41,829 nt of DNA from Burkholderiales bacterium. GTDB lineage: Bacteria > Pseudomonadota > Gammaproteobacteria > Burkholderiales > SG8-41. Below the pieces are notes generated by a model. It saw nothing but the letters and a program-made list of their open reading frames with translations. It searched no databases and was not told the origin of the DNA. Shown here in pieces: positions 5,135-39,436 of the stretch (its first letter is position 1; each line of letters starts with the position of its first letter). Location: positions 1-41,829 of the forward strand of contig JAIETP010000041.1 in the NCBI GenBank assembly GCA_019744975.1, in the 5' to 3' direction. Made by a program: the position numbers and the translations under genes.

Positions 5135-6516
5135 GCGCACCTCCGTTGCAATGCCGCCACCGCAGCGGCAAACACTTCCGCGCGATGAATGTAATTGCGG
5201 TACATGTCGTAACTCGCGCAGGCGGGCGACAGCAACACCGCATCGCCGGCCCGCGCGGCATTAAATGCGAGTTCCACCGCCTGCTCCATGTCTGCGGCAC
5301 GCAGCAGCGGCACCCGGTTGCCGATGGCATCGGCGATGCGTTCGGCATCACGCCCGATCAGCACCACCGCACGCGCCTTGTGTTGTGCCGCCGCGGCGAG
5401 TGGTGCGAAATCCTGGCCCTTGCCATCGCCGCCGGCGATCAACACCACCGGTTGCGGCATACCGTTCAGAGCAGCGACGGTGGCGCCGACATTGGTACCC
5501 TTGGAATCGTCGTAAAACTGTATATTATTGATTTTATTGATATTTTTTACGCGGTGCGGCAGGCCGTCAAAGGTCTGCCAGGCTTGGGTGATTACCGCAT
5601 CGGCAACACCGACGGCGCGACACAAGGCGCCCGCAGCCAGCGCATTGGCCGCGTTGTGCAAACCGGCGACACGCAATGCAGCCACCGGTGCCAGCGCGAC
5701 ATCACCGCGCATCAGCATCGATTCCTTGCCCCTGCCGCCAATACCCCAGGCCTCCGCATCGCGCGGTGCATCCAGCCCGAAACGGACCACGCGGCGACCA
5801 GACTGCGCCATGCCATCGCTCCACCTGTCCTGGCGATTGAGCACCTGCACACCATCACCGGCAAAGATGCGACTTTTTGCGGCGGCGTATTCGCGCATGC
5901 CGTCATACCGGTCAAGATGATCCTCGGACAGATTCAGTACCGTCGCCGCGCGCGCTTGCAGCGATATCGTGCTTTCCAGCTGAAAACTCGACAGCTCCAG
6001 CACAAACACACCGGGCCGCTGTACGCCTTTTCCCGCACCGTCTTCAATTTCGGTCCATGCATCGAGTACCGGCAAACCGATGTTGCCCGCCACCACGGGA
6101 CGCAGCGCAGCGGCTTTACAGATTTCACCGGCCAGCGCGGTCACCGTGCTTTTGCCGTTGGAACCGGTAATTGCAATTACCGGCGTGGCATCGTTGCGCG
6201 CCGCCAGTGCCTGTGCGAACAATTCCACGTCACCCACCACCGGCACGCCCCGCGCTGCGGCCTGCGCGATGGCGCCGGCACGACGGTCCACGCCAGGACT
6301 CACCGCGATCATGTCGACACCATCAACGTCGGGGGCCACGCCAAGTGCCATCGGCAACTGCGGCAATTCCCGGCGCAGCGTGGCGGCATGCGGGGGTGCC
6401 GCGCGGCTGTCCGTCGCGCGCACTTCGGCGCCGCGGCGCTGCAGCCAGCGCGCCATCGACAATCCGGTATCACCGAGACCAACGACCATTACGCGTGCAC
6501 CCTTGAGATCGAACAT
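5131..6516 (-). CDS. murD: UDP-N-acetylmuramoyl-L-alanine--D-glutamate ligase
   Basis: Adds D-glutamate to UDP-MurNAc-L-Ala. 461 residues from ATG 6516 ([20 protein letters not shown]), which has AGGA five bases upstream. A GTG at 6537 overlapping a TGA is the alternative start and would add seven residues. The Mur P-loop GSNGKST is at 118-124, ELSSFQLE at 174-181, [11 protein letters not shown] at about 194-204, and DDSKGTN near 336-342. Residues 323-333, [11 protein letters not shown], are encoded by a strikingly AT-rich patch sharing 20 identical bases with an intergenic repeat at 39344. By alignment to remembered E. coli MurD, the spacing between HR and DSK is unchanged, so nothing was inserted in length. 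Confidence 0.96.
5528..5547 (-). repeat. AT-rich repeat copy inside murD
   Basis: On the minus strand this reads AAAAATATCAATAAAATCAA, identical over 20 bases to 39344-39363 and closely related to the copies at 20220 and 31477. It lies in frame in murD, encoding part of KNINKINN, in otherwise GC-rich coding sequence. Confidence 0.7.
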
Positions 6517-14175: not shown

Positions 14176-14377
14176 GGGTCGAATTACCGAATTTCTTTTT
14201 AAGGACAAAGACTTACAGCAACTTGTTGACCCCGATTTTTACTGTTTTTTCTTGGGGTAATATATCAATTAAAACAATAGGATATTGCGCGTACTGAAAG
14301 TAGCGCATTAAGTAATTATGCTTAAAAATCAGGCAATTACAAGCGATTGATGCGTCGCCGGCCGGCGACAACCCGTC
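14176..14377. other. AT-rich non-coding spacer between mraZ promoter and rnpB
   Basis: About 200 bases without a supportable gene, clearly AT-rich against its surroundings. It holds a 16-base perfect palindrome GTCGCCGGCCGGCGAC at 14354-14369. It also holds a weak match to the window's AT-rich repeat at 14264-14285 (ATCAATTAAAACAATAG). The palindrome may belong to the rnpB transcript end. Confidence 0.5.
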
Positions 14378-14435: not shown

Positions 14436-14765
14436 AGGTGAAGCTGGCCGTTAAGCCGGGTTCTGTCGTGGGCAGCCATTCCTCTGGGCCGTACATTGCT
14501 GCACGGCTCAAGCCACCTACCCGCAAGCTCGGCGGGACGCGTCAACGCTTGCCTATTCGGTGTTGCTCCGGGTGGAGGTTACCGCGTTTCACCCCGCTGA
14601 ACTCGCGCCCAGCGGACTCGTCTCTGTGGCCCTGTTCCTCGCCTCACGGCGGACGGGCGTTACCCGTCACCCTACCCTGTGGAGCCCGGACTTTCCTCTA
14701 TGCGCGGCACGCACAAGTTGCCTTGTCCGGTTTGTTCCGCGCACAGCGGCTGCCTGGCCAGCTTC
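14436..14765 (-). ncRNA. rnpB: RNase P RNA (bacterial type A)
   Basis: Catalytic RNA that matures tRNA 5' ends. On the minus strand GAGGAAAGTCCGGGCTCC (conserved 5' core) lies near 14700, and ACAGAACCCGGCTTA (conserved 3' core) near 14460. The outer helix P1 is visible as GAAGCTGGCC at the 5' end (14765-14756) perfectly complementary to GGCCAGCTTC at the 3' end. The length is about 330 nt. The exact ends are taken from the P1 helix. A run of six T follows the 3' end. Confidence 0.95.
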
Positions 14766-14815: not shown

Positions 14816-15436
14816 TCAGCGCGTTTCCCGCGCGCGCACTGCTGCCAGCAGGTCGTGCAAATGACGATCATGCACACCCAGTTCATCGAGGTGGCGCAGG
14901 GTGTTCACCAGGTAATCAACGTTGGGGCCGCGCTCACCGCAACAGGCGGCAATGATGGTGGCGGCCGTGTCGAGTTCCAGCCGACCGGCGTAACCGTCGT
15001 GGCAACGATTGGCGAGGAAGGTCAATGCCGTCTGGCGCCCTGTACCCATGCCGACCGGCAACAACCGTGGCACGTAAACCCGCCGCCGCATCTCGCGCAA
15101 CCACAGGGTTTCCAGCGCTTCAAGAACATCCGCGGCAGCGATGCAATACGCCGTGCCCTTGCAGGCCCCTCCGCGATCCAGCCCAAGCACCAGTCCGGGC
15201 GTTGCCACCGTGCCGCGATAACGGCTGGAATAAATGCAGAATGCGCGGTGATAACCGCGCAGCAACGCCGGCGCTGCTGCTGAAAAACGAAAACCGGGAT
15301 CCCACATCAGTGAGCCGTAGGTGAATACCCACAAGTCGCCCCGCGGCAGATCAAGCTGGCTGTAATGAAAGGGATCGTCGTGCGCCAAGGGCGTCAATCC
15401 GGCGCCGGGGAAGTGTTTTGATCCGGGCAGGCTCAA
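14816..15436 (-). CDS. ChaC-like gamma-glutamylcyclotransferase
   Basis: The ChaC family cleaves gamma-glutamyl groups, typically of glutathione, to 5-oxoproline; cytoplasmic. The signature is [14 protein letters not shown] near residue 40, with later [34 protein letters not shown] and [16 protein letters not shown], where a glutamate probably acts as acid/base. No ATG lies in the right place. TTG 15436 overlaps the pyrC stop as TTGA, with GGAGG 11 bases upstream, giving 206 residues. The longer frame to 15526 lies inside pyrC. Co-transcription with pyrC is likely. The exact substrate cannot be read from sequence. Confidence 0.85.
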
Positions 15437-19640: not shown

Positions 19641-20207
19641 ATGCACAAGCTTTTGACATTGGTCTTTATCGCGCTGCTGCCGATCCTCTCCGGATGCATG
19701 GCCGTGGCGGTCGGTGGCGCCGCGGCAACCGGTGTGCTGATCGCGGAAGACCGCCGCACGGTGGGCACCATCACCGAAGACCAGGGTATCGAACTCAAGG
19801 CGGCAAACCGCATCGAAGAAAAAGTTAAGGACGCGCACATCAATGTCACCAGCTACAACCGCATGGTGCTGCTGACCGGCGAAGTGCCGACCGAGACCGC
19901 CAGGGCCGACGCCGAACGCATCGCGCGCGCAGTGGAAAATGTGCGCAGTGTATTCAACGAACTTCAGGTCGCGGGCAACACCGCGATGCAGTCGCGCACC
20001 AACGATGCGGTGATCACCTCCAAGGTCAAGGCGCGTTTTGTTGATGCCCGCAAATTCAGCCCGGTGCACGTCAAGGTGGTGACCGAGAACAGTGTCGTCT
20101 ACCTGATGGGCATGGTCAAAAAACAGGAGGCGGCGGACGCCACCGAAGTGGCGCGCACCACGGGTGGCGTCACCAAAGTTGTCCGGGTGTTCGAATACCT
20201 GGACTAG
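19641..20207 (+). CDS. dolP: BON-domain outer-membrane lipoprotein, DolP-like
   Basis: DolP (YraP) is a dual-BON lipoprotein of the outer membrane that concentrates at division sites and supports envelope integrity. The 188-residue protein has a lipoprotein signal with lipobox LSGC (Cys at residue 19), then two BON domains at about 45-112 and 118-188, seen as repeated VKDAHINVTSYNRMVLLTGEV and VKVVTENSVVYLMGMV. The context, last gene after lpoA-yraN-gmhA, matches E. coli yraM-yraP. The ribosome site AGGAG lies eight bases before the ATG. Confidence 0.9.
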   Translation: MHKLLTLVFIALLPILSGCMAVAVGGAAATGVLIAEDRRTVGTITEDQGIELKAANRIEEKVKDAHINVTSYNRMVLLTGEVPTETARADAERIARAVENVRSVFNELQVAGNTAMQSRTNDAVITSKVKARFVDARKFSPVHVKVVTENSVVYLMGMVKKQEAADATEVARTTGGVTKVVRVFEYLD

Positions 20208-20219
20208 AAGTCCAAAATA

Positions 20220-20241
20220 ATCAATAAAAACAAATACTTAT
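20220..20241 (+). repeat. AT-rich intergenic repeat, copy 1
   Basis: Core ATCAATAAAAACAAATA followed by CTTAT, in the 40-base gap between convergent dolP and the NTF2-like gene. All 22 bases are identical, on the opposite strand, to 31477-31498. Confidence 0.75.
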
Positions 20242-20247
20242 ATAATA

Positions 20248-20691
20248 CTAGTTCAGGGGCGCCGCAGGGCGCCCCTGGCGTTTCAGCAAGCGCAGCAAGG
20301 CGCCGATCCCCGGCAATTTTTCGTACAACTCTTCCGCCGCATCCCAGTAGTCGCGATGCACCGCCACCAGGCCCGCCGCGTCAAACGTCAGCAGGCTCGC
20401 GCCGTGGATACGCTGCGTGACCCGCGGCTGCCAGCGACGAAAGCGGAATTCGAAATCCCAGGTCAGCAATACGCGCGGCATCTCGATCACGCGCTCACGC
20501 ACGATGAAACGCGGCGCGTCGAGTTGATCGAACATGTGGCGGAAAATCGCCTCCAGCGCATGGTGGCCGCGCACATCGTTGAACGGGTCCTTGAAGCGGC
20601 AGTCGGCGGCGTAAAAATGCGGCAGCTCAGTAACAGATTGCGGCGTCAGTGTTTCGAAAAACTGCACCAGCGCATCCACGCGATCACTCAT
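20248..20691 (-). CDS. NTF2-like / SnoaL-type protein of the light operon
   Basis: 147 residues with a SnoaL/NTF2-like cone fold pattern: MSDRVDALVQFFETLTPQSVTELPHFYAADCRFKDPFNDVRG, then ALEAIFRHMFDQL and a beta-rich end. No catalytic residues can be assigned, and its function in these clusters is unknown to me. ATG 20691 shares one base with the SDR stop (TGATG). It is the last gene of the eight-gene minus operon starting at 27179, so co-regulation with LitR is inferred. Confidence 0.82.
   Translation of the reverse strand: MSDRVDALVQFFETLTPQSVTELPHFYAADCRFKDPFNDVRGHHALEAIFRHMFDQLDAPRFIVRERVIEMPRVLLTWDFEFRFRRWQPRVTQRIHGASLLTFDAAGLVAVHRDYWDAAEELYEKLPGIGALLRLLKRQGRPAAPLN
20253..20277. terminator. 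Strong GC hairpin at convergent dolP / NTF2-like ends
   Basis: CAGGGGCGCC, a four-base loop and GGCGCCCCTG form a perfect 10-bp stem covering the last codons of the minus-strand gene. It could stop transcription of either convergent operon, but neither side has a clean T run. Confidence 0.5.
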
Positions 20692-21467
20692 CACATTCCC
20701 GTCCCTTTGTGCACCAGCGCAAAATACCAGCGGTAAGGCAACAGTCGCAGCAGTTTCAGCCACAGCGTAAAACGCCGCGGGAAATGAATTTCAAAATTGC
20801 CGCGCGAAAAACCGGCGATGATTTCGCGCGCAGCCTCTTCAGCGCTGATAAGTGCGGGCATTTTGAAGGTATTTTTGTCGGTCAGCGGTGTTTTGACGAA
20901 ACCGGGATTGATCAGATACACCGCGATGCCGCGCGGCGCCAGATCCAGGTACAAGGTCTCCGCAAGATTGATCAACGCCGCCTTGGTCGCGCCGTACACC
21001 AGCGCCGTCGGCAATCCACCATAACCGGCGACACTGGACACGATGGCGATACCGCCGGATTTCTGCAGCAGCAGTTGCCCCACCACCGCAGGCAGCCCGT
21101 TGATCACACCGTTCAGATTGACATCGACCAGACGGCGCGCGTCAGCGGCATCGAGTTCCCAGGCCCGCACGGGGCTGTGCGAACCGGCACACCACAACAC
21201 GAGGTCAATGCCGCCCCAGGCCGCGACCACCTGCTGCAAGGCCGGCGCCACACTGGCGGCATCCGTGACATCCAGCGGCAGCACCAGCGTGTTTGCGCCA
21301 GGTGTTGCGGCAATCTTTGCCAGACTGGGCGTGCTGCGCGCCGACAAAGCCACCCGCGCGCCCTGCGCCAGCAATACACGCGCCAGTGCGGCGCCGATGC
21401 CGCTGGACGCACCGATGACCCAGACCCGCCGGTCGTGCCAGTCGCGGATGCACGGATTCAGGCCCAT
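20691..21467 (-). CDS. Short-chain dehydrogenase/reductase (light operon)
   Basis: NAD(P)-dependent oxidoreductase of the classical SDR type, 258 residues. The cofactor loop is GASSGIGAAL at about 19-28, LWCAG replaces the usual NNAG near 90, a serine lies in IVSSVAGYGG, and the catalytic pair is Y-x3-K in VYGATKAAL. The C-terminus FTLWLKLLRLLPYRWYFALV is hydrophobic and may associate with membrane, which fits a lipid-related substrate (inference). It is preceded by four 14-base repeats that carry its ribosome site. Confidence 0.9.
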   Translation of the reverse strand: MGLNPCIRDWHDRRVWVIGASSGIGAALARVLLAQGARVALSARSTPSLAKIAATPGANTLVLPLDVTDAASVAPALQQVVAAWGGIDLVLWCAGSHSPVRAWELDAADARRLVDVNLNGVINGLPAVVGQLLLQKSGGIAIVSSVAGYGGLPTALVYGATKAALINLAETLYLDLAPRGIAVYLINPGFVKTPLTDKNTFKMPALISAEEAAREIIAGFSRGNFEIHFPRRFTLWLKLLRLLPYRWYFALVHKGTGM

Positions 21468-21469
21468 GT

Positions 21470-21525
21470 ATCTGTCCTCATGTATTCGTCCTCATTCATC
21501 CGCCCTCATTCATCCGCGCTCATTT
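21470..21525 (-). repeat. Four tandem 14-base repeats carrying the SDR ribosome site
   Basis: On the plus strand ATCTGTCCTCATGT, ATTCGTCCTCATTC, ATCCGCCCTCATTC and ATCCGCGCTCATTT follow in register. On the coding (minus) strand each contains an ATGAGG- or ATGAGC-type purine motif, and the last serves as the SDR ribosome site seven bases before its ATG. The first unit read contains the DUF3833 stop. Confidence 0.75.
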
Positions 21526-22050
21526 ACGTTTGCTGAAACTCAACGTGACTTCGCCAAGGCGGACGCCGAACTTGCTCATCACCGAACGATTGAGCATCAC
21601 CCGGTCATCCATCAAATACATCCAGTCGTCAAAATCCACGGCCCAGGTCTTGCCGTCGACCTCAAGATTCATCACGTATTGCCAGCGCAGCGCATTGCCA
21701 AAAGCCTCACCCTCCGCCTCGCCGACGACGTCGGCCGCGGTACCGCGATAACGGCGCTCATCCAGCCGGGTGATGGTCCACACCCGCCGGCTGCGGCTGC
21801 CGTCGGAGTATTCGAAGTGTTCATCCAGTGTTCCGGTGTCGCCCGCCCATTTCGCGTCAATACGCACATAAAAACGTTTGACCACCCTGCCGCTGCGATC
21901 CTGGAACACCCCCCAGGCATCGATCGTGCCGTCAAAATAACGCCGCAGATCGAGCGCGGGACGCTCATCGCGATAGTCTTCCACGCTGACCGTGCCGCAG
22001 CCGGCCAATACAAACAGCATCATGGCCAATGCGGCCCGCCAGGTTTTCAT
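21520..22050 (-). CDS. DUF3833 family lipoprotein
   Basis: 176-residue predicted lipoprotein of unknown molecular function: signal MKTWRAALAMMLFVLAGCG with lipobox LAGC (Cys at residue 18), then SVEDYRDERPALDLRRYFDGTIDAWGVFQDRSG, the DUF3833 start. A lipocalin-like beta-rich body follows, ending NRSVMSKFGVRLGEVTLSFSK. ATG 22050 overlaps the MFS stop as ATGA. DUF3833 genes are commonly found with CFA-like and DUF1365 genes, as here. Confidence 0.88.
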   Translation of the reverse strand: MKTWRAALAMMLFVLAGCGTVSVEDYRDERPALDLRRYFDGTIDAWGVFQDRSGRVVKRFYVRIDAKWAGDTGTLDEHFEYSDGSRSRRVWTITRLDERRYRGTAADVVGEAEGEAFGNALRWQYVMNLEVDGKTWAVDFDDWMYLMDDRVMLNRSVMSKFGVRLGEVTLSFSKRK

Positions 22051-23375
22051 GGGGTATCTCCTGTCAGCAACGATTTCACGCGCCGGGATTCCGGCGCAGA
22101 CAGCCACAACAGCAATGCCGCCGCGAGTTTGATTACGCAGGGCAGCAGCGCATAAACCCAGGGCAGGGCGGAACCCGCACCGGCAACAACACCCGGCACA
22201 TAACCCAGCACCTGCAACAGCGGCAGCGCGACGCCGGCGGCCAGGGCCAGTGCGAGTTTTTCGAGCAAATGCCAGAGACCGAAATAAGCGCCATCGGGCC
22301 GCCCGTCCTGACCTTCATCGTCATCGATGACATCCGCCAGCATCGAGGCCGGCAAAGCCAGATCAGCGCCGAAAGCCAGTCCCGACAACACACACACCAC
22401 GGCGAATGCGACTACATCGCCGGGCCCGAGTGACCAGGCACTGATGAATGCCGCAACCGCCAGCAGCATCGCCAGCAGCCAGGCGCGGGCCTTGCCGACA
22501 TGCGCCGCAATAAGCACCCATCCCGGCATGCCGGCGGCACCCGCGATGAAGTACAACACCAGGAACAGCGCGGTCAGGTCCGGCCGCTGCAACACGTCCG
22601 CAACATAAAACAGCACCAGCGTCGCCGGAATTGCTGCGGCCACACCATTCACCAGAAAAATGACGGCAAGGCGGCGAAACCGCGGATTGTGCAAAGGCCG
22701 CAGCACATCGCGCAGGCGCAAGGTCGGGGCAAGGGCAATTGGCGCAACGTCGGTCGCCGGAACAACAGTCGCAGCAAAACGGGGCCCGGCCAGTACCGTC
22801 AGGGCAACCGCAGCGACCAGCACCAGGGCATAAAAAATGCTGAACAACTCGAGGCCCGCGGCTGCGCCATAACGTTGCGCGAGCCACTCCGGCAAGGCCG
22901 CTGCAAGCAATACCCCCGTCAATGCCGCGGCGCCGCGCGCCGCTGTGATCCGCGTGCGTTCGGCATAGTCACGTGACCAGGCACTGCCCAGCGCAAAATA
23001 ACTGATGCTGGCTGCGCTCAGCCCGAGATAGACCAGCATCAGTGACAACGCCAGCCACGATGCAAGTCCTGCGGCATCGGCCGGCGGATGAAACAACAAA
23101 AACATGCCTGCCGCGATCGCCGGCACCGACGCGACCAGCATCGCTTTACGTCCACCCCAGCGCTGCGGCACACGATCGGCCAGACACCCGAGCAGCGGAT
23201 CGCTGACGGCATCGAGCACCCGCACGGCCAGCAGCAATACGCCGATCAAGGCCAGATCGAGTCCCAATGCGGAATAAAATTTCGGCGCATGCACATACAC
23301 CGGCAGTGCTGCCGCGGCCAGCGGCAAGGCTGCAGCGGCATACGCCGCCAGCGCGCGCCTATTCAGGCCGGGCAT
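22047..23375 (-). CDS. MFS transporter, GPH (MFS_2) type
   Basis: 442-residue polytopic inner-membrane transporter with about 12 hydrophobic segments. The N-half contains LLAVRVLDAVSDPLLGCLADR, the typical GPH/MelB-type motif with an aspartate in helix 2, then RWGGRKAML as the loop 2-3 motif. A polar DDDEGQDGRPDGAYFG loop before the last helices is also GPH-like. ATG 23375 starts 17 bases inside the preceding gene. The substrate is unknown; in this gene set a lipid precursor rather than a sugar is plausible but unproven. Confidence 0.87.
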   Translation of the reverse strand: MPGLNRRALAAYAAAALPLAAAALPVYVHAPKFYSALGLDLALIGVLLLAVRVLDAVSDPLLGCLADRVPQRWGGRKAMLVASVPAIAAGMFLLFHPPADAAGLASWLALSLMLVYLGLSAASISYFALGSAWSRDYAERTRITAARGAAALTGVLLAAALPEWLAQRYGAAAGLELFSIFYALVLVAAVALTVLAGPRFAATVVPATDVAPIALAPTLRLRDVLRPLHNPRFRRLAVIFLVNGVAAAIPATLVLFYVADVLQRPDLTALFLVLYFIAGAAGMPGWVLIAAHVGKARAWLLAMLLAVAAFISAWSLGPGDVVAFAVVCVLSGLAFGADLALPASMLADVIDDDEGQDGRPDGAYFGLWHLLEKLALALAAGVALPLLQVLGYVPGVVAGAGSALPWVYALLPCVIKLAAALLLWLSAPESRRVKSLLTGDTP

Positions 23376-23892
23376 CGCGTCCGAGCAGCGCGGCGCGCAG
23401 TTCCGGCGTCTGCGTGCGTGGATCCAGCCAGATCGAAAAAAAACCCCGCGCAAACTCCGGATCTTCGATCGCGCCAAGATAGCCGGTGGCCGAATAAAAC
23501 AGCGCGCCGCGCTGCGGCACATGGACACCGATCAGCCGGCTGCCCGGAGCAACGTCGGGAAACAGCTTGCGCATCGCGGCTCCCCAGCGCGTGAGCGCGG
23601 CTTCATCACCGATGCCGAGGCGGCGCAGTTCGTCGACGCTGGTTTCCGCCAGTTGTGCGCCGGTCACGCGCCGCGCATAACGGATGTCGAGTGCGTACGG
23701 CGCCTGCGCCTGCCAGCGGCCGCTCGGCGACCACAAGGACGCGTCATAGACATGGAAACCCCACCAGCGCAACTGCCCCTCTCCAACCATGCGACAGCTC
23801 TGCAGCAGCGTGCAGGCAGCCGCCGGCAATTCCGCCACGGCGGCGGGCGCGGTGAACAGCAGCAACAGACCAAACAGAATGGTTTTATGCAT
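23359..23892 (-). CDS. Chalcone-isomerase-like periplasmic protein
   Basis: 177 residues with a signal peptide (MHKTILFGLLLLFTAPAAVA). The fold-specific pattern includes WWGFHVYDASLWSPSG, ALDIRYARRVTGAQLAETSVDELRRLG and FFSIWLDPRTQTPELRAALLG. Bacterial members of this family (chalcone_3) often bind fatty acids rather than flavonoids. ATG 23892 overlaps the upstream methyltransferase end by eight bases. A periplasmic lipid-binding role in the light operon is inference. Confidence 0.82.
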   Translation of the reverse strand: MHKTILFGLLLLFTAPAAVAELPAAACTLLQSCRMVGEGQLRWWGFHVYDASLWSPSGRWQAQAPYALDIRYARRVTGAQLAETSVDELRRLGIGDEAALTRWGAAMRKLFPDVAPGSRLIGVHVPQRGALFYSATGYLGAIEDPEFARGFFSIWLDPRTQTPELRAALLGRDARPE

Positions 23893-25096
23893 GGATCAGC
23901 AGTGCCTGGGTCACATCGGTGGCCCGCGCGCGAAAACCGGCTTCGCAATAAGCGAGGTAAAAACGCCAGGTGCGCATGAACCGCTCATCAAAACCCTGCG
24001 CCTGCACCTGCGCCGCCACGCTGTTGAAGCGTTCATGCCAGTGGCGCAGGGTTTCCGCGTAATCGAGACCGAAGTCGTGCATCTCGGCCACCGTCAGTCC
24101 CTGCGCCGCGGCCACTTCACGAAACCGGCCGGGCGAGGGCAACATGCCGCCGGGAAATATGTATTGCTGGATAAAGTCGGTGCCGCTGCGGTAACGCTCG
24201 AATTTGGCGTCGGCGATGGTGATCGACTGCACCACGGCGCGGCCACCGGGGCGCAGCCGGTCGCGCAGCGTCGAGAAATAACCCGGCCAGTAGTTTTCGC
24301 CGACGGCTTCGAACATTTCAATCGACACCAGGTGATCGAATTTACCCTCAATATCCCGGTAGTCCTGCAACCTCAATTCCACCCGATCCTGCAACCCTGC
24401 TTTGGCAATCCTTTGTTGCGCATACTCGAGCTGCGCCTGCGAAATAGTGATGCCGGTGACGCGGCAACCCGCGCGCGCGGCCTGTTCGGCAAAGCCGCCC
24501 CAGCCGCAACCCACTTCGAGGATATGCTGACCGGGACGGGCGTCGAGCGCGCGCAGGATGCGCGCGTACTTCGCGGTCTGCGCATCGGCCAGGTCACGCG
24601 TGGTGTCGCCTTCAAACAAGGCCGCCGAATAAGTCATGCCGGAATCCAGCCACAGCCGGTAAAAATCATTACCCAGGTCATAGTGGGCATGGATGTTTTT
24701 GCGGCTGCCGCTCCGGGAGTTGGGCCGCATCCAGTGACGCAAGCGGTATGCCAGCGTCGCCCACCAGCGACCGTGGATGGCCTGCTCGATGGCCTGTTCG
24801 TTCAACGCACCCAGCAGCAATAACTGCATCAGGTCGCTGGAATCTGCGCGCCCGGCAATATACGCCTCGGCCAGCCCGATATCGCCGCGGCTCAACATGT
24901 CGCCGCAGACATCCCAGTCATGCAGCGTCAGCGCAGCATGCGGGCCGGGGGTTTGGCCGGCAAAGGACAACTTCCTGCCGTCGGGACAACGCAACTCGAT
25001 GCTGCCGCAATGCAATTTCGACAGCAGCCGGAACAGCCAGCGCGCGGCAGCCGGCTCGGTTTGTGATTGGACGGGATTGCTGAGTGTGTTGTTCAT
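23885..25096 (-). CDS. Cyclopropane-fatty-acyl-phospholipid-synthase-like methyltransferase
   Basis: SAM-dependent methyltransferase of the CFA family, 403 residues from ATG 25096 (ATGA overlap with DUF1365). SAM loop VGCGWGG at 195-201, LQDYRDIEGKFD, SIEMFEAVGENYW, QQYIFPGGMLPS. Two positions differ from E. coli Cfa as I recall it: the YSCA cysteine is alanine (A158 in TYSAAL) and the histidine of HTIGS is glutamine (Q290 in VVQSIT). The MFE glutamate (E263) remains. The bicarbonate site is therefore altered, and a methylene or methyl transfer other than cyclopropanation should be considered. The frame's extension to 25324 lies inside DUF1365. Confidence 0.9.
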   Translation of the reverse strand: MNNTLSNPVQSQTEPAAARWLFRLLSKLHCGSIELRCPDGRKLSFAGQTPGPHAALTLHDWDVCGDMLSRGDIGLAEAYIAGRADSSDLMQLLLLGALNEQAIEQAIHGRWWATLAYRLRHWMRPNSRSGSRKNIHAHYDLGNDFYRLWLDSGMTYSAALFEGDTTRDLADAQTAKYARILRALDARPGQHILEVGCGWGGFAEQAARAGCRVTGITISQAQLEYAQQRIAKAGLQDRVELRLQDYRDIEGKFDHLVSIEMFEAVGENYWPGYFSTLRDRLRPGGRAVVQSITIADAKFERYRSGTDFIQQYIFPGGMLPSPGRFREVAAAQGLTVAEMHDFGLDYAETLRHWHERFNSVAAQVQAQGFDERFMRTWRFYLAYCEAGFRARATDVTQALLIHA

Positions 25097-25863
25097 CGGG
25101 TGATCTTCTCTGCCGGGGGCAGGGGTTTCGAATAAAAAGGCAGGTGCTTCAACCACAGCCGCAGCGCGTGGTAATGGATGCGCAGCATCACGCCCAGCGT
25201 CATCCAGGGATAACGGAAAAAAACGAAGGCCAGAGCCGGGGTTTGCAGCGGCGCCGCAACACCACCGACACTGGTCAGCAGCCGCGTACCACGGCCGTCG
25301 TCGTAATCGATGCGAAATGTGCAACGCGCACCGGTGTCGGTAAAACGAAAACGGTATTCACCGGTGACCGGGAAAAACGGCGAGACATGGAATACCTTGC
25401 GCGCCGTCAACCAGTCGCCGGAGCTGATCGGCCGCGCATCCGCATGGGCGACCAGATAATGGTGGTGTTCGCCGAAGGTATTGCTGACAGCGGCGACCAC
25501 CGCACGCAGCGCCCCCGCGCGGTCATGGCACAGCCAGAAACTGACGGGGTTGAAGACGTAACCGAGGACGCGCGGGAAGCTCTGCAGCCAGATCGCGCCG
25601 TTGGCGCAGTCCAGCCCGTGCTGCGCGAGTAAATCACGCAGCCACGGTTCCAGTGCACTGCCGTCGCGGGGGCCATGATCGGCATCATGAAAACTGAACA
25701 GGTTCCAGCGGTTGCGTGACATCAGCGCCGGCCAGCGCGCCGGCGGCGCATCGACACGCAGGCGCATGAAAAACACGCCATGGCGAAACGCATGTTCAAC
25801 CGGCGCGAGGCGGCGGTGCATGACCTCGCCCGTGTAAATAAGCGCGGCGGCTGTATCCGTCAT
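25093..25863 (-). CDS. DUF1365 family protein
   Basis: 256 residues beginning MTDTAAALIYTGEVMHRRLAPVEHAFRHGVFFMRL, the standard DUF1365 start. Further family features are LQSFPRVLGYVFNPVSFWLCHD, VSNTFGEHHHYLV and a late hydrophobic FFRYPWMTLGVMLRIHYHALRLWLKHLPFY. Histidine-rich patches suggest a metal or substrate site, but no reaction is established to my knowledge. It is coupled by ATGA overlaps to the oxidoreductase before it and the methyltransferase after it; this triplet is a recurring lipid-modification module. Confidence 0.92.
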   Translation of the reverse strand: MTDTAAALIYTGEVMHRRLAPVEHAFRHGVFFMRLRVDAPPARWPALMSRNRWNLFSFHDADHGPRDGSALEPWLRDLLAQHGLDCANGAIWLQSFPRVLGYVFNPVSFWLCHDRAGALRAVVAAVSNTFGEHHHYLVAHADARPISSGDWLTARKVFHVSPFFPVTGEYRFRFTDTGARCTFRIDYDDGRGTRLLTSVGGVAAPLQTPALAFVFFRYPWMTLGVMLRIHYHALRLWLKHLPFYSKPLPPAEKITR

Positions 25864-27179
25864 GCGGCAACCTTCAGCGCCGCGACCGGTGCCTGCCACG
25901 GCGCGGCGACGCCCAGTCCTGCGGCCACCGCCATGCCGGCCTTCAGGCCGTCTTCATGAAAACCATAACCGGCCCAGGCACCGCAAAACCAGGTGTTGCG
26001 CCGACCCTGCAACTGCGGCAAACGCGCCTGTGCGGCAATCCCGGCCTGGTCAAACACCGGATGGGCATAGCTGTACCGATCAATAACCGTTGCCGATCGT
26101 GGCTCATCGCCCGGGTTCAGCGTGACGATCACCGGCTGGCGAAATGGCAGCGGCTGCAGCTTGTTGATCAGATAACTGACGCCCACCGGCTGCGTCTGCC
26201 CTGCTGAGTCCTCTGCATGGTAATTCCACGCTGACCACGCCGCGCGGGACCGCGGCAGGAAGCGCTCGTCGGTGTGCAGCACCACGCGGTTGTCCTGGTA
26301 ACGAATCGCGCCCAGTACCGCGCGTTCGGCGACATCGACGTCGCCGAGCAGACGCAAGGCCTGGTCACTGTGGCAGGCCATCACAACAGCATCGAAGGTC
26401 CGCGAATCGCCGCCAGCGAGTTTTAACCTGGCACCACCCGCTTCACGCGTCACCGAAACCACGGGAGTGCCGAGATGCACATGCCCGATCTCCGCCGCGA
26501 GCCGATCCACGTAGGTTCTTGCGCCGCCAATTACGGTGCGCCATTGCGGCCGGTCGCTGACCTGCAACAAACCGTGATTGGCACAGAACGCAAAAAAAGT
26601 GCGCGCCGGGTAATCCAGCATGGTCGCCGCCGGGCACGACCAGATCGCACCCGCCATCGGCAACAGATACCAGTCGCGGAAGGCGCGGCCGTAACTCCCC
26701 GCAGCGAGGAATTCGCCGAGTGTCATCGCGAAACCGGTGCCGCCTTGCGCGATGGCGGTGGCCTGTTTATTAAAACGCAGGATGTCGGACAACATGCCCC
26801 AGAACCGTGGCCGCAGCAGGTTGCGGCGCTGGGCAAACACGGCGGCCAGATTGCTGCCGGCCCATTCGATGTTTTCGGCGGCGATACGCGCCGAAAACGA
26901 CATGTCGCTGGCGCAGGACGCAATGCCCAGGTGATCGAACAGGGCGATCAGATTGGGATAAGTGCGGTCGTTGAACACCAGAAAACCGGTATCGACCGGC
27001 GCAGTCACACCTTCCAGCGTGACATCGACGGTATGGCTGTGGCCGCCGAGGTAGTTGTTTGCCTCGAACAGGGTCACATCATGGCTACGCGACAACAGCC
27101 AGGCGGCGGAGAGCCCGGCAATGCCGGCCCCGACCACGGCAATGCGCCGGGCTGCCGGGTTATGTTGCGTCCCATTCAT
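25860..27179 (-). CDS. FAD-dependent amine-oxidase-family oxidoreductase
   Basis: 439 residues from ATG 27179, first gene of the eight-gene minus operon. The FAD Rossmann loop is IAVVGAGIAGLSAAWLL at about 13-29, ending in the acidic FEANNYLGGH; APVDTGFLVFNDRTYPN follows, and the C-terminal FAD motif is WFCGAWAGYGFHEDGLKAG. The family is often annotated as amine oxidase, but clustering with CFA-like and DUF1365 genes points to a fatty-acyl or lipid substrate (inference). The start codons of this gene and of LitR are 193 bases apart and divergent. Confidence 0.92.
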   Translation of the reverse strand: MNGTQHNPAARRIAVVGAGIAGLSAAWLLSRSHDVTLFEANNYLGGHSHTVDVTLEGVTAPVDTGFLVFNDRTYPNLIALFDHLGIASCASDMSFSARIAAENIEWAGSNLAAVFAQRRNLLRPRFWGMLSDILRFNKQATAIAQGGTGFAMTLGEFLAAGSYGRAFRDWYLLPMAGAIWSCPAATMLDYPARTFFAFCANHGLLQVSDRPQWRTVIGGARTYVDRLAAEIGHVHLGTPVVSVTREAGGARLKLAGGDSRTFDAVVMACHSDQALRLLGDVDVAERAVLGAIRYQDNRVVLHTDERFLPRSRAAWSAWNYHAEDSAGQTQPVGVSYLINKLQPLPFRQPVIVTLNPGDEPRSATVIDRYSYAHPVFDQAGIAAQARLPQLQGRRNTWFCGAWAGYGFHEDGLKAGMAVAAGLGVAAPWQAPVAALKVAA

Positions 27180-27205
27180 ACCATTGATACTCCGAAACAC
27201 GCTGA

Positions 27206-27251
27206 TTGGATGTCCATGACAGAAAGGCCGGGGGGCGGTTGTCACATCCAA
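27206..27251. promoter_or_regulatory. Candidate operator: TTGGATGT inverted repeat
   Basis: TTGGATGT at 27206-27213 and its complement ACATCCAA at 27244-27251 face each other across 30 bases in the divergent LitR promoter region. The first overlaps the perfect palindrome TGTCCATGACA (27211-27221). The position suits a regulator acting on both operons; binding by LitR is a guess. Confidence 0.4.
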
Positions 27252-27267
27252 ATTCCCCCGTGGACCG

Positions 27268-27296
27268 TTGACTTTGGGTAAACGCTAGCCAATAAT
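27268..27296 (+). promoter_or_regulatory. Promoter of the litR operon
   Basis: TTGACT (27268-27273), 17 bases, AATAAT (27291-27296). The predicted transcript start near 27303 rules out the frame's first ATG at 27295 and supports the start at 27373. Confidence 0.65.
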
Positions 27297-27372
27297 GTCT
27301 AGGTCAATGATGCCTTTAACAGGCAAAAATTCCCATTTTCAGGCTATAAAAGCCAATTCTGTCCAGGACATA

Positions 27373-28293
27373 ATGGAAACAGCCACCGTCTTGCCCGATG
27401 AGGCCCGCTACAACATTGCCGCCGTGGAGCGGGATACCGGCCTGTCCAAGGACACGCTGCGCGTGTGGGAGCGCCGTTACGGTTTTCCCACGCCGGTGCG
27501 CGACCAGCACGACGAACGTTTGTATTCGACGGACCAGCTCGAAAAACTGCGCCTGCTGCGCCTGCTGATCGACTACGGCCACCGCCCCGGAAAAATCATC
27601 AATCAAAGCAATGTCGAGCTGGCGCAACTGATTGCCTCGCGCGCGCCTGAACAAACGGCACCACCGGAAATCGCCGCCTTGCTGGAACTGCTGTTCAAAC
27701 ACGATGCCGACGGCCTGCGCAACGCATTGCTGCAAGCCCTGATGAAACAGGGGCTGCTGCGTTTTGTCACCGAAACCGTGGCCACGCTCAACCACTGGAT
27801 CGGCGAAGCCTGGCTCGCCGGAAAAATCGCGATTTTCGACGAACACCTGTACTCGGAACAGATCCAGAACATCCTGCGCAACGCGATCATCGCGCAGCCC
27901 GGCCGCGGTTCAGCGCCCCGGGTGCTGCTGACTTCGCTGCCCGGGGAAAAACACCGCATCGGCCTGTTGATGGTGGAGGCCGTGCTGGTCGCCGAAGGCG
28001 GTGCCTGCGTCGCGCTGGGCACGGAGACACCGGTGATCGACATCAAAAATGCCGCGCCCGCCTACAATGTTGATGTGGTCGCGCTGTCGTTCAGCAGCGC
28101 CTTCACCCAGAACGCCGCGCTCGCGGGGCTTGGCGAGCTGCGCGCGCTGCTCCCTGACAGCATCGAAGTGTGGGGCGGCGGCGGCGCCCTGGCGCGCGCG
28201 CGCAAGGCGCCCGCGGGTACCCTGCTGCTGCGCTCATTCGACGACATGCGTTATGCGCTCGAGCGCTGGCGCGTCGAACATGCGCAGCGCTGA
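27373..28293 (+). CDS. litR: LitR/CarH-type MerR photoregulator with B12-binding domain
   Basis: MerR-family repressor that uses adenosylcobalamin as a light sensor in the CarH/LitR family. 306 residues. The N-terminal winged helix-turn-helix is YNIAAVERDTGLSKDTLRVWERRYGF (13-38). A helical bundle has the adenosyl-pocket motif W-x9-EH (W147, E157, H158). The cobalamin-binding domain contains E192-K-H194-R-I-G197, an ExHxxG version of DxHxxG. ATG 27373 is chosen because it lies after the predicted transcript start and has AGGA upstream. Divergent operon and photolyase neighbours support a light-response role. Confidence 0.92.
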   Translation: METATVLPDEARYNIAAVERDTGLSKDTLRVWERRYGFPTPVRDQHDERLYSTDQLEKLRLLRLLIDYGHRPGKIINQSNVELAQLIASRAPEQTAPPEIAALLELLFKHDADGLRNALLQALMKQGLLRFVTETVATLNHWIGEAWLAGKIAIFDEHLYSEQIQNILRNAIIAQPGRGSAPRVLLTSLPGEKHRIGLLMVEAVLVAEGGACVALGTETPVIDIKNAAPAYNVDVVALSFSSAFTQNAALAGLGELRALLPDSIEVWGGGGALARARKAPAGTLLLRSFDDMRYALERWRVEHAQR

Positions 28294-28296
28294 ACC

Positions 28297-28437
28297 ATGC
28301 CCAGGGCCATGCGCAAATCAGAACTCCCGGAGAAAACCTGCGTGGCCTGCGGCCGGCCGATGGTCTGGCGGCGGCGCTGGGCAAAAGTCTGGGATGCCGT
28401 CAAATACTGTTCGGAACGCTGCCGGCGCAACCGCTGA
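28297..28437 (+). CDS. DUF2256 zinc-ribbon-like mini-protein
   Basis: 46-residue protein between litR and the photolyase gene: MPRAMRKSELPEKTCVACG, then RPMVWRRRWAKVWDAVKYCSERCRRNR. Four cysteines (C15, C18, C38, C42) in two CxxC/CxxxC pairs suggest a zinc site. The CGRPM-W-RR-W and KYCSxRCR pattern is that of DUF2256, which is regularly found next to cryptochrome/photolyase genes. It starts three bases after the litR stop and ends three bases before the next ATG. Function unknown. Confidence 0.9.
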   Translation: MPRAMRKSELPEKTCVACGRPMVWRRRWAKVWDAVKYCSERCRRNR

Positions 28438-28440
28438 ACC

Positions 28441-29973
28441 ATGCGCAAACTGATACTCGTGCTCGGCGACCAGCTGAGTCTCGACAATCCCGCGCTCGCC
28501 GGCATCGACCGCGCGCAGGACTGCGTGGTGATGATCGAAGCCGCGGGAGAATCCACCCACGTGTGGAGTCACCGGGCGCGCATCACGCTGTTCCTGTCGG
28601 CGATGCGCCACTTCGCGGAAGATCTGCGCGCACAAAAGCTGCCGCTGCATTATGTCGCGCTGCAGCCCGGTGCAGGCGGGGAACCCGGCCTTGGCGTGCA
28701 GCTCCGCGCCGTCATCAATGAACGGCGGCCGGCCAGGGTCGTCATCTGCGAACCCGGTGAACACCGTGTGCTTGAACTCGTCAAGACGGCCTGTCGCGAC
28801 GCCGCTGTGCCGCTGGATATCCGCTCCGACAGCCACTTCCTGTGCAGCCGCGAAGAATTCGCCGAATGGGCCAAAGGCCGCAAAGAACTGCGCATGGAAT
28901 TTTTCTACCGGCAGATGCGGCGCCGGCACGATGTATTGATGGAAATGGGCGAACCCGCCGGCGGAAAATGGAATTTTGATGCCGCAAACCGCGGCTCATT
29001 TCCCAAGGCAGGTCCCGGCGCACTGCCGCAACCTCCGCAGTTCCCCCCGGACGCAATCACACGGCAAGTGATTGCACTGGTCGGACAGCGTTTCCCTCAA
29101 CATCCGGGTTCGCTCCAAACATTCGGCTGGCCGGTCACCCGCGCCGATGCGCTGCAGGCCCTGCAGGATTTCATCAAACACCGCCTGCCGACTTTCGGCC
29201 TCTATCAGGATGCGATGTGGAGCGGCATGCCCTTCGGTTGGCATTCGCTGCTGTCGGCCGCGCTGAACCTGAAATTGCTCGATCCGCGCGAAGTCATTGC
29301 CGCGGCCGTGGCGGCCTGGCGCGACGGCCATGCGCCGCTGGCCGGCGTCGAGGGTTTTGTGCGGCAGATCCTCGGCTGGCGTGAATTCATCCGCGGCGTC
29401 TACTGGCTGGACATGCCGGGCATGCTCGAGGCCAACCACTTCGACCATCAGCGCCCTCTGCCGTCATGGTACTGGACCGGCGAAACAGACATGAACTGCC
29501 TGCGCGAAACCATCACCCAGACGCTGCGCCACGGCTATGCACACCACATCCAGCGCCTGATGGTGACCGGCAATTTCGCATTACTCGCCGGCATCGCGCC
29601 CCGCGCCGTGCACGAATGGTATCTGGCGGTCTACGTCGACGCCGTCGAATGGGCGGAACTGCCCAACACCGCGGGCATGGCGCTCTACGCCAACGGCGGG
29701 CGGTTCACCAGCAAACCCTATGTCGCCTCCGGCGCCTACATCCAGCGCATGAGCAACTACTGCAACAACTGCCGTTATGACCCGAAAATCAGGACCGGGC
29801 CGCGCGCCTGTCCGTACACCACCCTGTACTGGAACTTTCTCGACCGCCATGAGTCGGTATTCAAGCGCAATCCACGCACCGCGCTGATGGCGGGCAATGT
29901 CGCACGACTGACCGCCGCCGAACGCGGCGCGATCCGCACCGCGGCCGGCAACATTCTGGCAACAATTGCGTGA
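28441..29973 (+). CDS. phrB: Fe-S cryptochrome/(6-4) photolyase family protein
   Basis: Flavoprotein of the bacterial iron-sulfur photolyase/cryptochrome group (CryB/PhrB type), repairing (6-4) photoproducts or sensing blue light. 510 residues. Start MRKLILVLGDQLSLDNPAL is typical. C353, C441, C444 and C457 have the same mutual spacing as the four [4Fe-4S] ligands remembered for Agrobacterium PhrB (350, 438, 441, 454). RHGYAHHIQRLMV (363-375) contains the conserved active-site histidines. LPNTAGMALYANGG and SKPYVASGAYI are family hallmarks. Repair versus signalling cannot be decided from sequence. Confidence 0.93.
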   Translation: MRKLILVLGDQLSLDNPALAGIDRAQDCVVMIEAAGESTHVWSHRARITLFLSAMRHFAEDLRAQKLPLHYVALQPGAGGEPGLGVQLRAVINERRPARVVICEPGEHRVLELVKTACRDAAVPLDIRSDSHFLCSREEFAEWAKGRKELRMEFFYRQMRRRHDVLMEMGEPAGGKWNFDAANRGSFPKAGPGALPQPPQFPPDAITRQVIALVGQRFPQHPGSLQTFGWPVTRADALQALQDFIKHRLPTFGLYQDAMWSGMPFGWHSLLSAALNLKLLDPREVIAAAVAAWRDGHAPLAGVEGFVRQILGWREFIRGVYWLDMPGMLEANHFDHQRPLPSWYWTGETDMNCLRETITQTLRHGYAHHIQRLMVTGNFALLAGIAPRAVHEWYLAVYVDAVEWAELPNTAGMALYANGGRFTSKPYVASGAYIQRMSNYCNNCRYDPKIRTGPRACPYTTLYWNFLDRHESVFKRNPRTALMAGNVARLTAAERGAIRTAAGNILATIA

Positions 29974-30016
29974 CCATAATATGTTCCCCTCTGCCCGCGA
30001 GGCCAAGGAGCCCCTG

Positions 30017-30880
30017 ATGCAGCCCAGCACCGAGTTTGTCACCACCAACCGCATGCTCTACCCGGAGATTTTCAAGTCGCTGGAACGCATCCGCTGGAAC
30101 ATGGCCGATGATGTTCCCTGGGACCGCTTCGACGGCTCGCAACTGTCCGACGAACAGGCCCTGACCATCAAGATGAACGCGATCACCGAGTGGGCCGCGC
30201 TGCCGGCCACGGAAATGTTCCTGCGCGACAACCAGCATGACAGTGATTTCTCCGCCTTCATGTCGGTTTGGTTCTACGAGGAGCAGAAACATTCGCTGGT
30301 GCTGATCGATTACCTGCGGCGTTTCCGTCCCGAAATGGCGCCGACGCCGGAGGAACTGCACGCGGTGCGTTTTGCCTTCGACCCGGCGCCGCCGCTGGAA
30401 ACCCTGATGATGCATTTCTGCGGCGAAATCCGCCTCAATCACTGGTACCGCTGCGCGATGCAATGGCATACCGAGCCGGTGATCCGCCACATCTACAACC
30501 TGATCTCGCGCGACGAGGCACGTCATGGCGGCGCCTACCTGCAGTACATGAAGCGCGCACTGAACACCGTTGGTGAATCCGCACGCGCGGCCTTCTCCAA
30601 AGTCGGTGTGCTGATGGCCAGTTCCGGGCGCAGCGGCAAACCGCTGCATCCGACCAATCTGCATGTCAACAAAAGCCTGTTCCCGAACGATACCGTGCAA
30701 AGCAAACTCCCGGATCCGGCATGGCTTGAGCGCTGGCTGGATGAACAGATCCGCTTTGATCGCGACTGGGAGCAAAAGGTGGTCTCGGTAATCCTGCACA
30801 ATCTGTCACTGCTGTTCGGGCGCAAATTCGAATCGGTGAAGGACCTCAACCGCTTCCGCAAGGAAATGATCGCGGTCTGA
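30017..30880 (+). CDS. Ferritin-like di-iron protein, acyl-ACP-desaturase-like
   Basis: 287 residues from ATG 30017, which has AAGGAG six bases upstream; the frame extends to a TTG at 29966 but without such a site. The di-iron ligand pattern of soluble acyl-ACP desaturases can be read: E in TEWAALPATE, EEQKH, E in CGEIRLNHWY, and DEARHGG. The family introduces double bonds into acyl chains using O2. It follows the photolyase by 43 bases and may belong to the litR operon, adding an oxidative acyl enzyme to the lipid genes opposite. Substrate unknown. Confidence 0.8.
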   Translation: MQPSTEFVTTNRMLYPEIFKSLERIRWNMADDVPWDRFDGSQLSDEQALTIKMNAITEWAALPATEMFLRDNQHDSDFSAFMSVWFYEEQKHSLVLIDYLRRFRPEMAPTPEELHAVRFAFDPAPPLETLMMHFCGEIRLNHWYRCAMQWHTEPVIRHIYNLISRDEARHGGAYLQYMKRALNTVGESARAAFSKVGVLMASSGRSGKPLHPTNLHVNKSLFPNDTVQSKLPDPAWLERWLDEQIRFDRDWEQKVVSVILHNLSLLFGRKFESVKDLNRFRKEMIAV

Positions 30881-30940
30881 AGCAGTCGCCGGTCTTCCGG
30901 CGTTTGTCGCAGCCCGCGCGCCCGCGTAGACTGCGGCCTC

Positions 30941-31438: not shown

Positions 31439-31476
31439 GAGCCAAGAAGTAAGCGCCCGCTAACTTATAGCTAGTC

Positions 31477-31498
31477 ATAAGTATTTGTTTTTATTGAT
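31477..31498 (-). repeat. AT-rich intergenic repeat, copy 2
   Basis: Minus strand: 22 bases identical to 20220-20241 (core ATCAATAAAAACAAATA plus CTTAT). It sits in the 64-base convergent gap between rfaE2 and the SPOR gene, ending four bases before the SPOR stop codon. Confidence 0.75.
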
Positions 31499-31502
31499 AA
31501 TT

Positions 31503-32207
31503 TTATGATTTCGCCGGGGCGCTAACCGGGCAGCCCCCGGTCTTGATTTCCGCCGCCGGAAAGTCCTTCTGCAACTCCGCCAGCCGCGTCAGCGTCGCCG
31601 CAGCGGGGTCGCCCACCACAAACACCACCTGCTTCAGGAACCGTTCGCGGCGTGTGACTGTGGCTGACCGTACACCCAGCGCGCGCAGGCGTTCGAGTTC
31701 GGCTTTCGCCGCGTCCTCGTTTTTGAACAGGCCCAGCGACAGCGCATTGCGCCACGGACCGGCATCGGTAACAACAAAAAATTCCGCGACGCCCAAGGCC
31801 TTCAGTTCGCCCATCTTGCGCTCCACGTCGCTCTTGGTCTTCTGCGGCGGCATGTGTACCCAGTAACCATCCACCTCGGTGACGCGGCGCTGCGCCCCGC
31901 CCGGTAAAGCCAGCGCGGTCAATGCCGCATCGGCGCGCGCGACTTCAGAACCGGCAAACGGCCCCCATTCGGCACAGTTTTTCGGCGCAGATTGTGCTGT
32001 GGGCACGGCAGGCGCAGCCGGCGCGGAAGCCGAAACGGCGCCTGGCGCAACCGACGACACCGTTTCAACACCAACCGGAACAATTTTCTCCGGACTGATC
32101 TGCAGGGCGGCAATCTGCGCCGCAGCCCCGTCGGCCTCGCCAAGAAAATGGTGATAGGCAAAAAAACCAAGATTGGCAAACAACAGCAGCAACAACAGAA
32201 TTCTCAT
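31503..32207 (-). CDS. SPOR-domain protein
   Basis: 234 residues: an N-terminal hydrophobic segment (about 2-18) as membrane anchor, an Ala/Pro/Val-rich linker (about 45-75), then NCAEWGPFAGSEVARADAAL and a region with VHMPPQKTKSDVERKMGELKALGVAEFFV and SLGLFKNEDAAKAELERLRALGVRSA, the SPOR repeat pattern. SPOR domains bind denuded septal glycan. ATG 32207 overlaps the coaX stop as ATGA. The same birA-coaX-SPOR order is common in betaproteobacteria. Confidence 0.82.
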   Translation of the reverse strand: MRILLLLLLFANLGFFAYHHFLGEADGAAAQIAALQISPEKIVPVGVETVSSVAPGAVSASAPAAPAVPTAQSAPKNCAEWGPFAGSEVARADAALTALALPGGAQRRVTEVDGYWVHMPPQKTKSDVERKMGELKALGVAEFFVVTDAGPWRNALSLGLFKNEDAAKAELERLRALGVRSATVTRRERFLKQVVFVVGDPAAATLTRLAELQKDFPAAEIKTGGCPVSAPAKS

Positions 32208-33936: not shown

Positions 33937-33996
33937 TGCAGGCCCATAGCATAGCCCAACACGGCTAATATAACGCTCCACACACAGGGAGGCGTC

Positions 33997-34968: not shown

Positions 34969-34991
34969 CACGCCACATCGAGGATGAAATC

Positions 34992-35960: not shown

Positions 35961-35997
35961 CCCCTTCCTGCATCCATGAACAGGGCGGGTTGAACAC

Positions 35998-36702: not shown

Positions 36703-36735
36703 TCCCGGGACGGCAAGGGGTAAAATGCGGGATCA
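36700..36735. promoter_or_regulatory. Inverted repeat around a TAAAAT box before glnS
   Basis: TGATCCC (36700-36706, starting with the peptidase stop) and GGGATCA (36729-36735) are perfect complements around TAAAAT (36721-36726). It could be a -10 region or a weak transcript-end hairpin. Confidence 0.3.
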
Positions 36736-39307: not shown

Positions 39308-39343
39308 ATAAAAACGCCCGAATTCGACCGCTGCGGTTTCGTT

Positions 39344-39378
39344 AAAAATATCAATAAAATCAAATATTTATTGATTTC
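39344..39378 (+). repeat. AT-rich intergenic repeat, copy 3, with inverted repeat
   Basis: AAAAATATCAATAAAATCAA at 39344-39363 equals the murD copy. The bases at 39350-39371 match copies 1 and 2 at 20 of 22. Here ATCAATAAA (39350-39358) and TTTATTGAT (39367-39375) are a perfect 9-bp inverted repeat. It lies in the convergent gap (39308-39436), which otherwise shows no gene. Confidence 0.7.
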
Positions 39379-39436
39379 CAAACTTTCAAGGGCATGAGTC
39401 GCAGGCGTCAGGCCGGCTCGTTCAGCCTAACGCGGT

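Follow-up and report, generated by a model that had tools for sequence, protein, structure and literature searches.

Hundreds of evenly spaced putative IHF sites in the genome of a presumably uncultured Burkholderiales bacterium

Copies of the repeat in the analysed window

The window, a stretch of 41,829 nucleotides, belongs to a genome of 3.69 Mb in 44 contigs, referred to here as G000. Gene calls place its convergent gaps at 20208-20247, 31439-31502 and 39308-39436, and each of them contains one copy of an AT-rich repeat. A fourth convergent gap, at 15284-15432, was predicted when the same gene finder was trained on other sequence, and was taken as spurious because its plus-strand ORF overlaps the RNase P RNA. 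The candidate sites and the adjoining hairpin are listed below.

20213..20250 (core 20220-20241), plus strand: strong site, 56.0 bits, in the convergent gap that separates a dolP-type lipoprotein gene from an uncharacterised one
31469..31505 (core 31477-31498), minus strand: strong site, 59.3 bits, in the convergent gap that separates rfaE2 from an uncharacterised gene
39342..39380 (core 39350-39371), plus strand: strong site, 58.6 bits, in the convergent gap that separates an SDR gene from an MmgE/PrpD-like one (the third gap)
5512..5548 (core 5520-5541), minus strand: weaker site within murD, 41.8 bits, ATA instead of TTR
14256..14293 (core 14264-14285), plus strand: weak site on the downstream side of the RNase P RNA, 27.0 bits, ATA instead of TTR
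20254..20277, no strand assigned: GC hairpin beside the dolP-gap site, in the 3'-terminal coding sequence of the minus-strand gene and outside the repeat

As the initial annotation had claimed, the 22 bases at 20220-20241 (plus strand) are identical to those at 31477-31498 (minus strand), and 39350-39371 (plus strand) agrees with them at 20 of 22 positions. Allowing up to three mismatches, the 41.8-kb window contains these three copies only, and 100 dinucleotide shuffles of it gave no match.

Among the flanking genes, rfaE2 scored above the TIGR02199 cut-off; the dolP-type lipoprotein gene matched PRK11023 with 155 bits, under the 184-bit cut-off; the SDR gene matched many SDR models, the best ones scoring under their specific cut-offs; and the MmgE/PrpD-like gene gave a weak match of 49.5 bits. 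The genes labelled NTF2-like and SPOR in the initial annotation had no NCBIfam match.

The two weaker sites, found by the weight matrix only, lie outside the three convergent gaps. The one within murD (assigned by a TIGR01087 match) is translated in frame as 11 residues directly ahead of FYDDSKGTN, and the other is flanked by the RNase P RNA and by the minus-strand gene that follows, which starts at 14068. The RNase P RNA itself (14436-14765, minus strand; Rfam RF00010, 247 bits) adjoins what we take from gene order, and from the checked identity of murD, to be the dcw cluster. The window also contains three diverged 91-base repeats, within 34171-35262 and 41594-41684, in three predicted genes that presumably encode TctC/Bug-type binding proteins.

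Gene context, conservation in place and spacing

Further copies, whose absence would have refuted the annotated idea, are abundant, as the genome-wide count proposed in the initial annotation revealed: with up to three mismatches, G000 contains 234 copies (113 and 121 on the two strands), compared with none for the reversed-pattern control. A weight matrix of 29 positions, trained on 82 copies and applied to 842 kb of G000 at a threshold of at least 16 bits, identified 116 sites, and none in three shuffles of the whole 842 kb; for the intergenic part, 77 real sites compare with a mean of 0.05 in 20 shuffles. By extrapolation, the G000 genome carries about 500 sites.

The 116 sites are distributed between tandem gaps (68), convergent gaps (19), divergent gaps (12) and coding or unassigned sequence (17). 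In the 842 kb, a site is present in 19 of 94 convergent, 64 of 628 tandem and 12 of 95 divergent gaps, so that the claim of a copy in every convergent gap holds for the window (three of three) but not for the genome. If sites simply followed the distribution of noncoding sequence, divergent gaps would hold more of them than they do (12/99 sites, P 0.002) and convergent gaps about as many (19/99 sites, P 0.5). Placement is in part random with respect to gene orientation, an outcome that had been named as counting against the annotated idea. After matching for gap length, convergent gaps exceeded tandem ones 1.72-fold (P 0.056) and divergent ones 2.3-fold (P 0.076). In syntenic stretches of seven relatives, 18 of 29 convergent gaps had a site at a threshold of at least 14 bits, and in the genome G096 only one of 26 did. 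The full occupancy of convergent gaps in the window was therefore partly luck. Convergent-gap specificity as a general rule was rejected, and the insulation of convergent transcription is not supported as the general role, given that tandem and divergent gaps carry sites, and in view of the length-matched comparison and of G096. Four copies (G000:C1:13068, C1:188786, C10:9809 and C10:13803) lie on the coding strand close to the start of predicted genes, within 10 to 80 bases, and translate as MNKIKYL-like N-termini, which appear signal-peptide-like by eye.

Of the 68 tandem-gap sites, 44 lie nearer to the stop codon of the preceding gene than to the start of the following one, as could be expected of a transcription terminator or an RNA 3'-end element acting between neighbouring genes. 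The GC hairpin beside the dolP-gap site, with fold z-scores over 91 bases of -5.6 (plus strand) and -4.3 (minus strand) and also visible by eye in the alignment of relatives, would fit such a function, as would the minus strand of the third gap, which folds better than its shuffles (z -3.1). However, site orientation relative to genes is near even (39 same and 29 opposite in G000, 13 and 15 in G415, a genome of another family), and the genes therefore do not share one RNA sequence; little structure is seen in the rfaE2 gap (z -1.9 and -1.1), and terminator-like sites in 19900-39600 number 28, compared with 23.5 in shuffles (sd 4.7). Among the three window copies, only that at 39350 has a stem of its own. 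An intrinsic terminator as the common function was rejected on account of the near-even orientation and the lack of a GC stem in the repeat, and we regard the broader terminator or 3'-end explanation as very improbable. The earlier remark that the repeat is no classical terminator was fair for the repeat itself, although a GC hairpin adjoins its dolP-gap copy.

All 20 genus-mates carry the repeat, in 34-187 copies each, and conservation in relatives, which the initial annotation had proposed to check, was evident at the two gaps aligned. In the dolP gap, the element is in place in all 18 relatives with an alignable gap (G003 and G017 were left out), and in the rfaE2 gap in all 15 whose locus spans the gap, with a query identity of 70-84% (G002, G003, G010, G014 and G017 were left out, and a 16th locus, L233, stops short of the gap). 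In both cases the rest of the gap drifts around the retained element. Degenerate copies have the AATAAAA half altered in some cases and one- or two-base gaps in two, and all retain CAR-NNNN-TTR; at the dolP site, CAR and TTR are constant across species and the spacer takes many values. At a threshold of at least 14 bits, the murD and rfaE2 sites were each found in seven of seven syntenic relatives, the dolP site in six (it falls below the threshold in G013) and the site at 14264-14285 in six of eight species. The murD site was found in all eight species, with TTR in none and an ATA codon near its end in seven. For the third gap, a site lies at the matching place in G018, G019 and G013 (0-62 bases from the aligned block), while in G005, G020, G016 and G001 the last aligned block ends 1.5-1.7 kb short of it, so that orthology is not established there. 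Exact copies in a public scan were, among the matches listed, mostly from Burkholderiales or Betaproteobacteria metagenome assemblies, with single matches elsewhere; the lineage is presumably a Burkholderiales family without cultured members.

The conservation in place bears on the possibility, considered in the initial annotation, of a mobile repeat that is tolerated only between 3' ends; such a repeat would here be a MITE or a REP element. The existence of hundreds of near-identical copies, some of them in the first codons of predicted genes, is what a mobile element would produce. Nevertheless, the element occupies its place in all relatives compared at the two aligned gaps while the remainder of each gap drifts, no empty orthologous site was seen at either, and the sequence logo has neither terminal repeats nor a hairpin. 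The presence-absence variation at orthologous places and the terminal repeats that define MITEs were accordingly not observed at these two gaps, although some other sites differ from species to species, and we consider mobility to be scarcely credible.

The sites are spaced more evenly than expected. With overlaps merged, 113 sites in the 842 kb of G000 have a mean spacing of 7.3 kb and a CV of 0.594, compared with 1.10 for random placement in intergenic gaps and 0.90 for placement in distinct gaps, and under neither null was the CV as low in any of 1000 simulations. Only 14 spacings are shorter than 3 kb, versus 34-43 expected. Across five thresholds, the random intergenic null was rejected each time (P 0.01 or less) and the distinct-gap null in four (P 0.086 at 40 bits). 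At 12 bits, the 24 sites of G001 (P 0.005) and the 18 of G096 (P 0.017) are evenly spaced too, the evidence being weaker at 24 bits (P 0.062 and 0.165, respectively); the exact-core sites of G415, among those listed, have a CV of 0.78, for which no null was computed. Neighbouring sites are in the same orientation in 44 cases and in opposite orientation in 62 (9 and 14 for those closer than 4 kb), and with no clear orientation effect there is no indication that recombination between direct repeats, or its avoidance, causes the spacing. In G415, site orientation follows the GC skew (7 plus and 19 minus versus 16 plus and 5 minus, Fisher P 0.001; contigs C6, C7, C13 and C15) and is not tied to transcription. 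Such replication-strand polarity is absent in G000 (32/26 in regions of positive skew and 20/17 in regions of negative skew).

Sequence pattern and protein repertoire

The conserved pattern comprises an A-tract followed by AATAAAA-W-CAR-NNNN-TTR. It was evaluated at 70 sites of G000 with only AATAAAANCA fixed and the remaining positions counted freely: a purine follows CA in 69, TT occurs exactly four bases on in 59 (0-9 at six other offsets), and the next base after TT is a purine in 65. In G000, the base before CA is A or T in 95% of cases (A in 44%), the NNNN spacer is biased, with ATAC favoured, and the frequency of A reaches 0.60-0.81 at positions -16 to -12, counted from the base before CA, an upstream A-tract of the kind that marks strong IHF sites. 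The same pattern emerged elsewhere, with TT at the expected offset in 34 of 49 sites of seven genus-mates (partly homologous loci), five of five in G096 and 29 of 40 in G415.

The IHF consensus is given as WATCARNNNNTTR, with an upstream A-tract in strong sites (PMC9519438), and an E. coli footprint consensus is described as AAA-nn-CA plus a TT core, with the base before CA free (PMC10380432); in the form printed there, CA-nnnn-TTT, it is displaced by one base if the core is anything but the final two T. The table of the review PMC6907758 has the IHF and H-NS motifs in swapped rows. Judged by its pattern, the repeat agrees strongly with the published IHF site, A-tract side included, and of the roles suggested in the initial annotation the binding site for a nucleoid protein is the favoured one, with IHF as the protein that we infer to bind. 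Relative to the IHF pattern WATCAR-NNNN-TTR, the T before CA is relaxed to W, and the sites in murD and on the rnpB side lack TTR though conserved.

These deviations could instead point to another sequence-specific chromosome protein whose site resembles that of IHF. Letters conserved beyond the classical IHF consensus (TCAATAAAA and the preference for ATAC), the conserved sites without TTR, the even spacing and the replication-strand polarity in G415 would all be compatible with such a protein; the coincidence with the published IHF site, extending to the A-tract side, and the lack of strand polarity in G000 argue against it, and on the whole we find it improbable.

G000 encodes two proteins with PF00216 matches, IhfA and IhfB, both scoring above the NCBIfam cut-offs and aligning, for the greater part of their length, with the E. 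coli subunits of solved structures (1IHF); neither a third PF00216 match nor HU was found in this genome. Core-pattern counts in 74 genomes of the family were 59-235 in genus g1 (21 genomes), 341 in g6 (one genome), 30-62 in g7 (three genomes), 117-610 in 13 of the 14 genomes of g9 (12 in the remaining one, G091) and 0-10 in five other genera (35 genomes), with 0-2 for the reversed control. The DNABII genes read in site-rich genera are of IHF types throughout, and HU was read in g2, g3, g4 (G062) and g5; G004 and G088, with no DNABII match, were left out of the interpretation. HU loss as the sole cause of site expansion looked clean within the family at first and was then rejected, since it failed at G021, G023, G031, G063 (78% complete) and G091, which have IHF-type genes only yet few or no sites, and at G415, which has 105 exact-core sites together with an HU-like gene, matched best in NCBIfam by HU-beta (94 bits, under the cut-off).

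In a survey of 399 genomes of the order, where 50 exact-core copies or more defined a site-rich genome, the best HU-query E value was above 1e-16 in 26 genomes, 11 of them site-rich and 15 site-poor; among the other 373, only G415 was site-rich. Few evolutionary events lie behind this association, because all 11 site-rich genomes belong to one family, and the Fisher value computed for it takes no account of relatedness. HU absence accompanies site expansion and is neither necessary nor sufficient for it; HU loss may have eased the expansion, but is not an explanation alone. In a survey of 377 genomes of the class, besides G000, a member of a different family, G783, stands out with 58 copies (control 1), followed weakly by G751 with 31 (control 1), and all remaining genomes have 18 or fewer.

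The main rival to IHF binding is a DNA uptake sequence, for which a very similar distribution would be predicted: competent cells would prefer motif-bearing fragments, and the motif would accumulate through biased uptake and recombination. The conservation in place and the intergenic bias of the repeat fit uptake sequences too, as does its genome-wide enrichment in both orientations. Even spacing has been reported for the Haemophilus USS and was counted in favour of this explanation. Neisseria uptake sequences are described as mostly intergenic, more conserved than their surroundings and located in permissive places of the core genome (PMC2397512). ComEC (PF03772) was detected in 15 of the 16 genomes tested, the 11 site-rich members of this set among them, and the only genome lacking a match, G091, is also the low-site genome of g9 (12 versus 117-610; five g9 genomes were tested for ComEC). 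This absence is, however, insecure, as the ihfA neighbourhood of G091 is rearranged compared with G093 and a contig end is close by, and ComEC is also present in all four other site-poor genomes tested (G021, G022, G027 and G031). In addition, the USS of H. influenzae, as presented in PMC7811141, relies on a short central core and recurs roughly every 1 kb, whereas the motif studied here has the bipartite IHF layout with a variable spacer and a wider spacing of about 7 kb. Overall, we hold the uptake explanation to be unlikely; if right, it would be equally notable, since it would place an uptake sequence outside Pasteurellaceae and Neisseriaceae, the families named in PMC7811141. G091 also carries an extra divergent IhfB-like gene.

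Possible role and comparison with known systems

With moderate confidence, we lean towards the interpretation that the copies are IHF sites kept in permissive places, where they would bend DNA at intervals and thereby organise the nucleoid. An IhfA-IhfB heterodimer would occupy each copy, an AT-rich stretch of some 36 bp in which the A-tract lies to the left of W-CAR-NNNN-TTR, and would be expected to bend the DNA sharply. The roughly 500 sites would be retained where an AT-rich 30-mer does little harm, often near stop codons and less in divergent gaps. IHF at these sites could fix plectoneme tips or loop boundaries every several kb and, since no HU was detected in G000, could take over part of HU's organising work. 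The occupancy of the sites by IHF and their architectural role are inferred, and the proposal does not predict that site orientation follows GC skew in G415. The interpretation offered in the initial annotation is, taken as a whole, partly supported.

In simulations, plectonemes become pinned by IHF, which can also partition DNA into topological domains (PMC9519438), and the E. coli chromosome is reported to have 400-500 supercoiled domains (PMC3820752), a number of the same order as that of the sites estimated here. A tentative and rather doubtful extension of the IHF interpretation is that, in this uncultured lineage without HU, IHF is the main sequence-addressed organiser, and that selection maintains an even lattice of about 500 sites, which would delimit loop or supercoil domains some 7 kb long. 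If so, domain boundaries would be written in the sequence and readable from it. In E. coli, supercoil-domain boundaries are usually described as variable rather than sequence-fixed. Evenly spaced, retained candidate sites of a bending protein would make the placement of such boundaries in bacterial chromosomes directly testable. Among the openly accessible papers listed in literature searches, none was seen to describe this motif or an even spacing of IHF sites.

Enterobacterial IHF sites (WATCARNNNNTTR with an upstream A-tract) share with the repeat its bipartite layout and A-tract side, and IhfA and IhfB are both encoded here; the putative sites described here differ in the relaxation of T to W, the longer conserved core, the hundreds of near-identical copies and the regular spacing. 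In Geobacter metallireducens, according to the account in PMC2700814, multicopy sequences were proposed as IHF/HU sites; three sets of them occur in this one species, a closely related one having none identified, and a fourth is likened to multicopy sequences known from many genomes. That description mentions neither spacing nor conservation in place, and the sequences themselves may coincide with the present motif.

The REP/BIME elements of E. coli are likewise intergenic, present in several hundred copies and proposed to act at domain boundaries. Some of them carry IHF sites (RIB/RIP). About 600 BIMEs are mentioned as possible domain barriers in PMC6907758, where they are described as palindromic, whereas the consensus of the repeat is not palindromic; BIMEs are also tied to RAYT transposases (PMC2817692), while the element studied here was not seen to move. 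The Correia or NEMIS elements of Neisseria are another intergenic repeat with an IHF site, one that binds IHF in vitro, but Correia units are MITEs of 105-155 bp (PMC2229807), and here the site is the whole unit. The DUS of Neisseria and the USS of Pasteurellaceae resemble the repeat in their hundreds to thousands of copies, occurrence in both orientations, intergenic bias and conservation in place, and differ from it in the layout of the motif.
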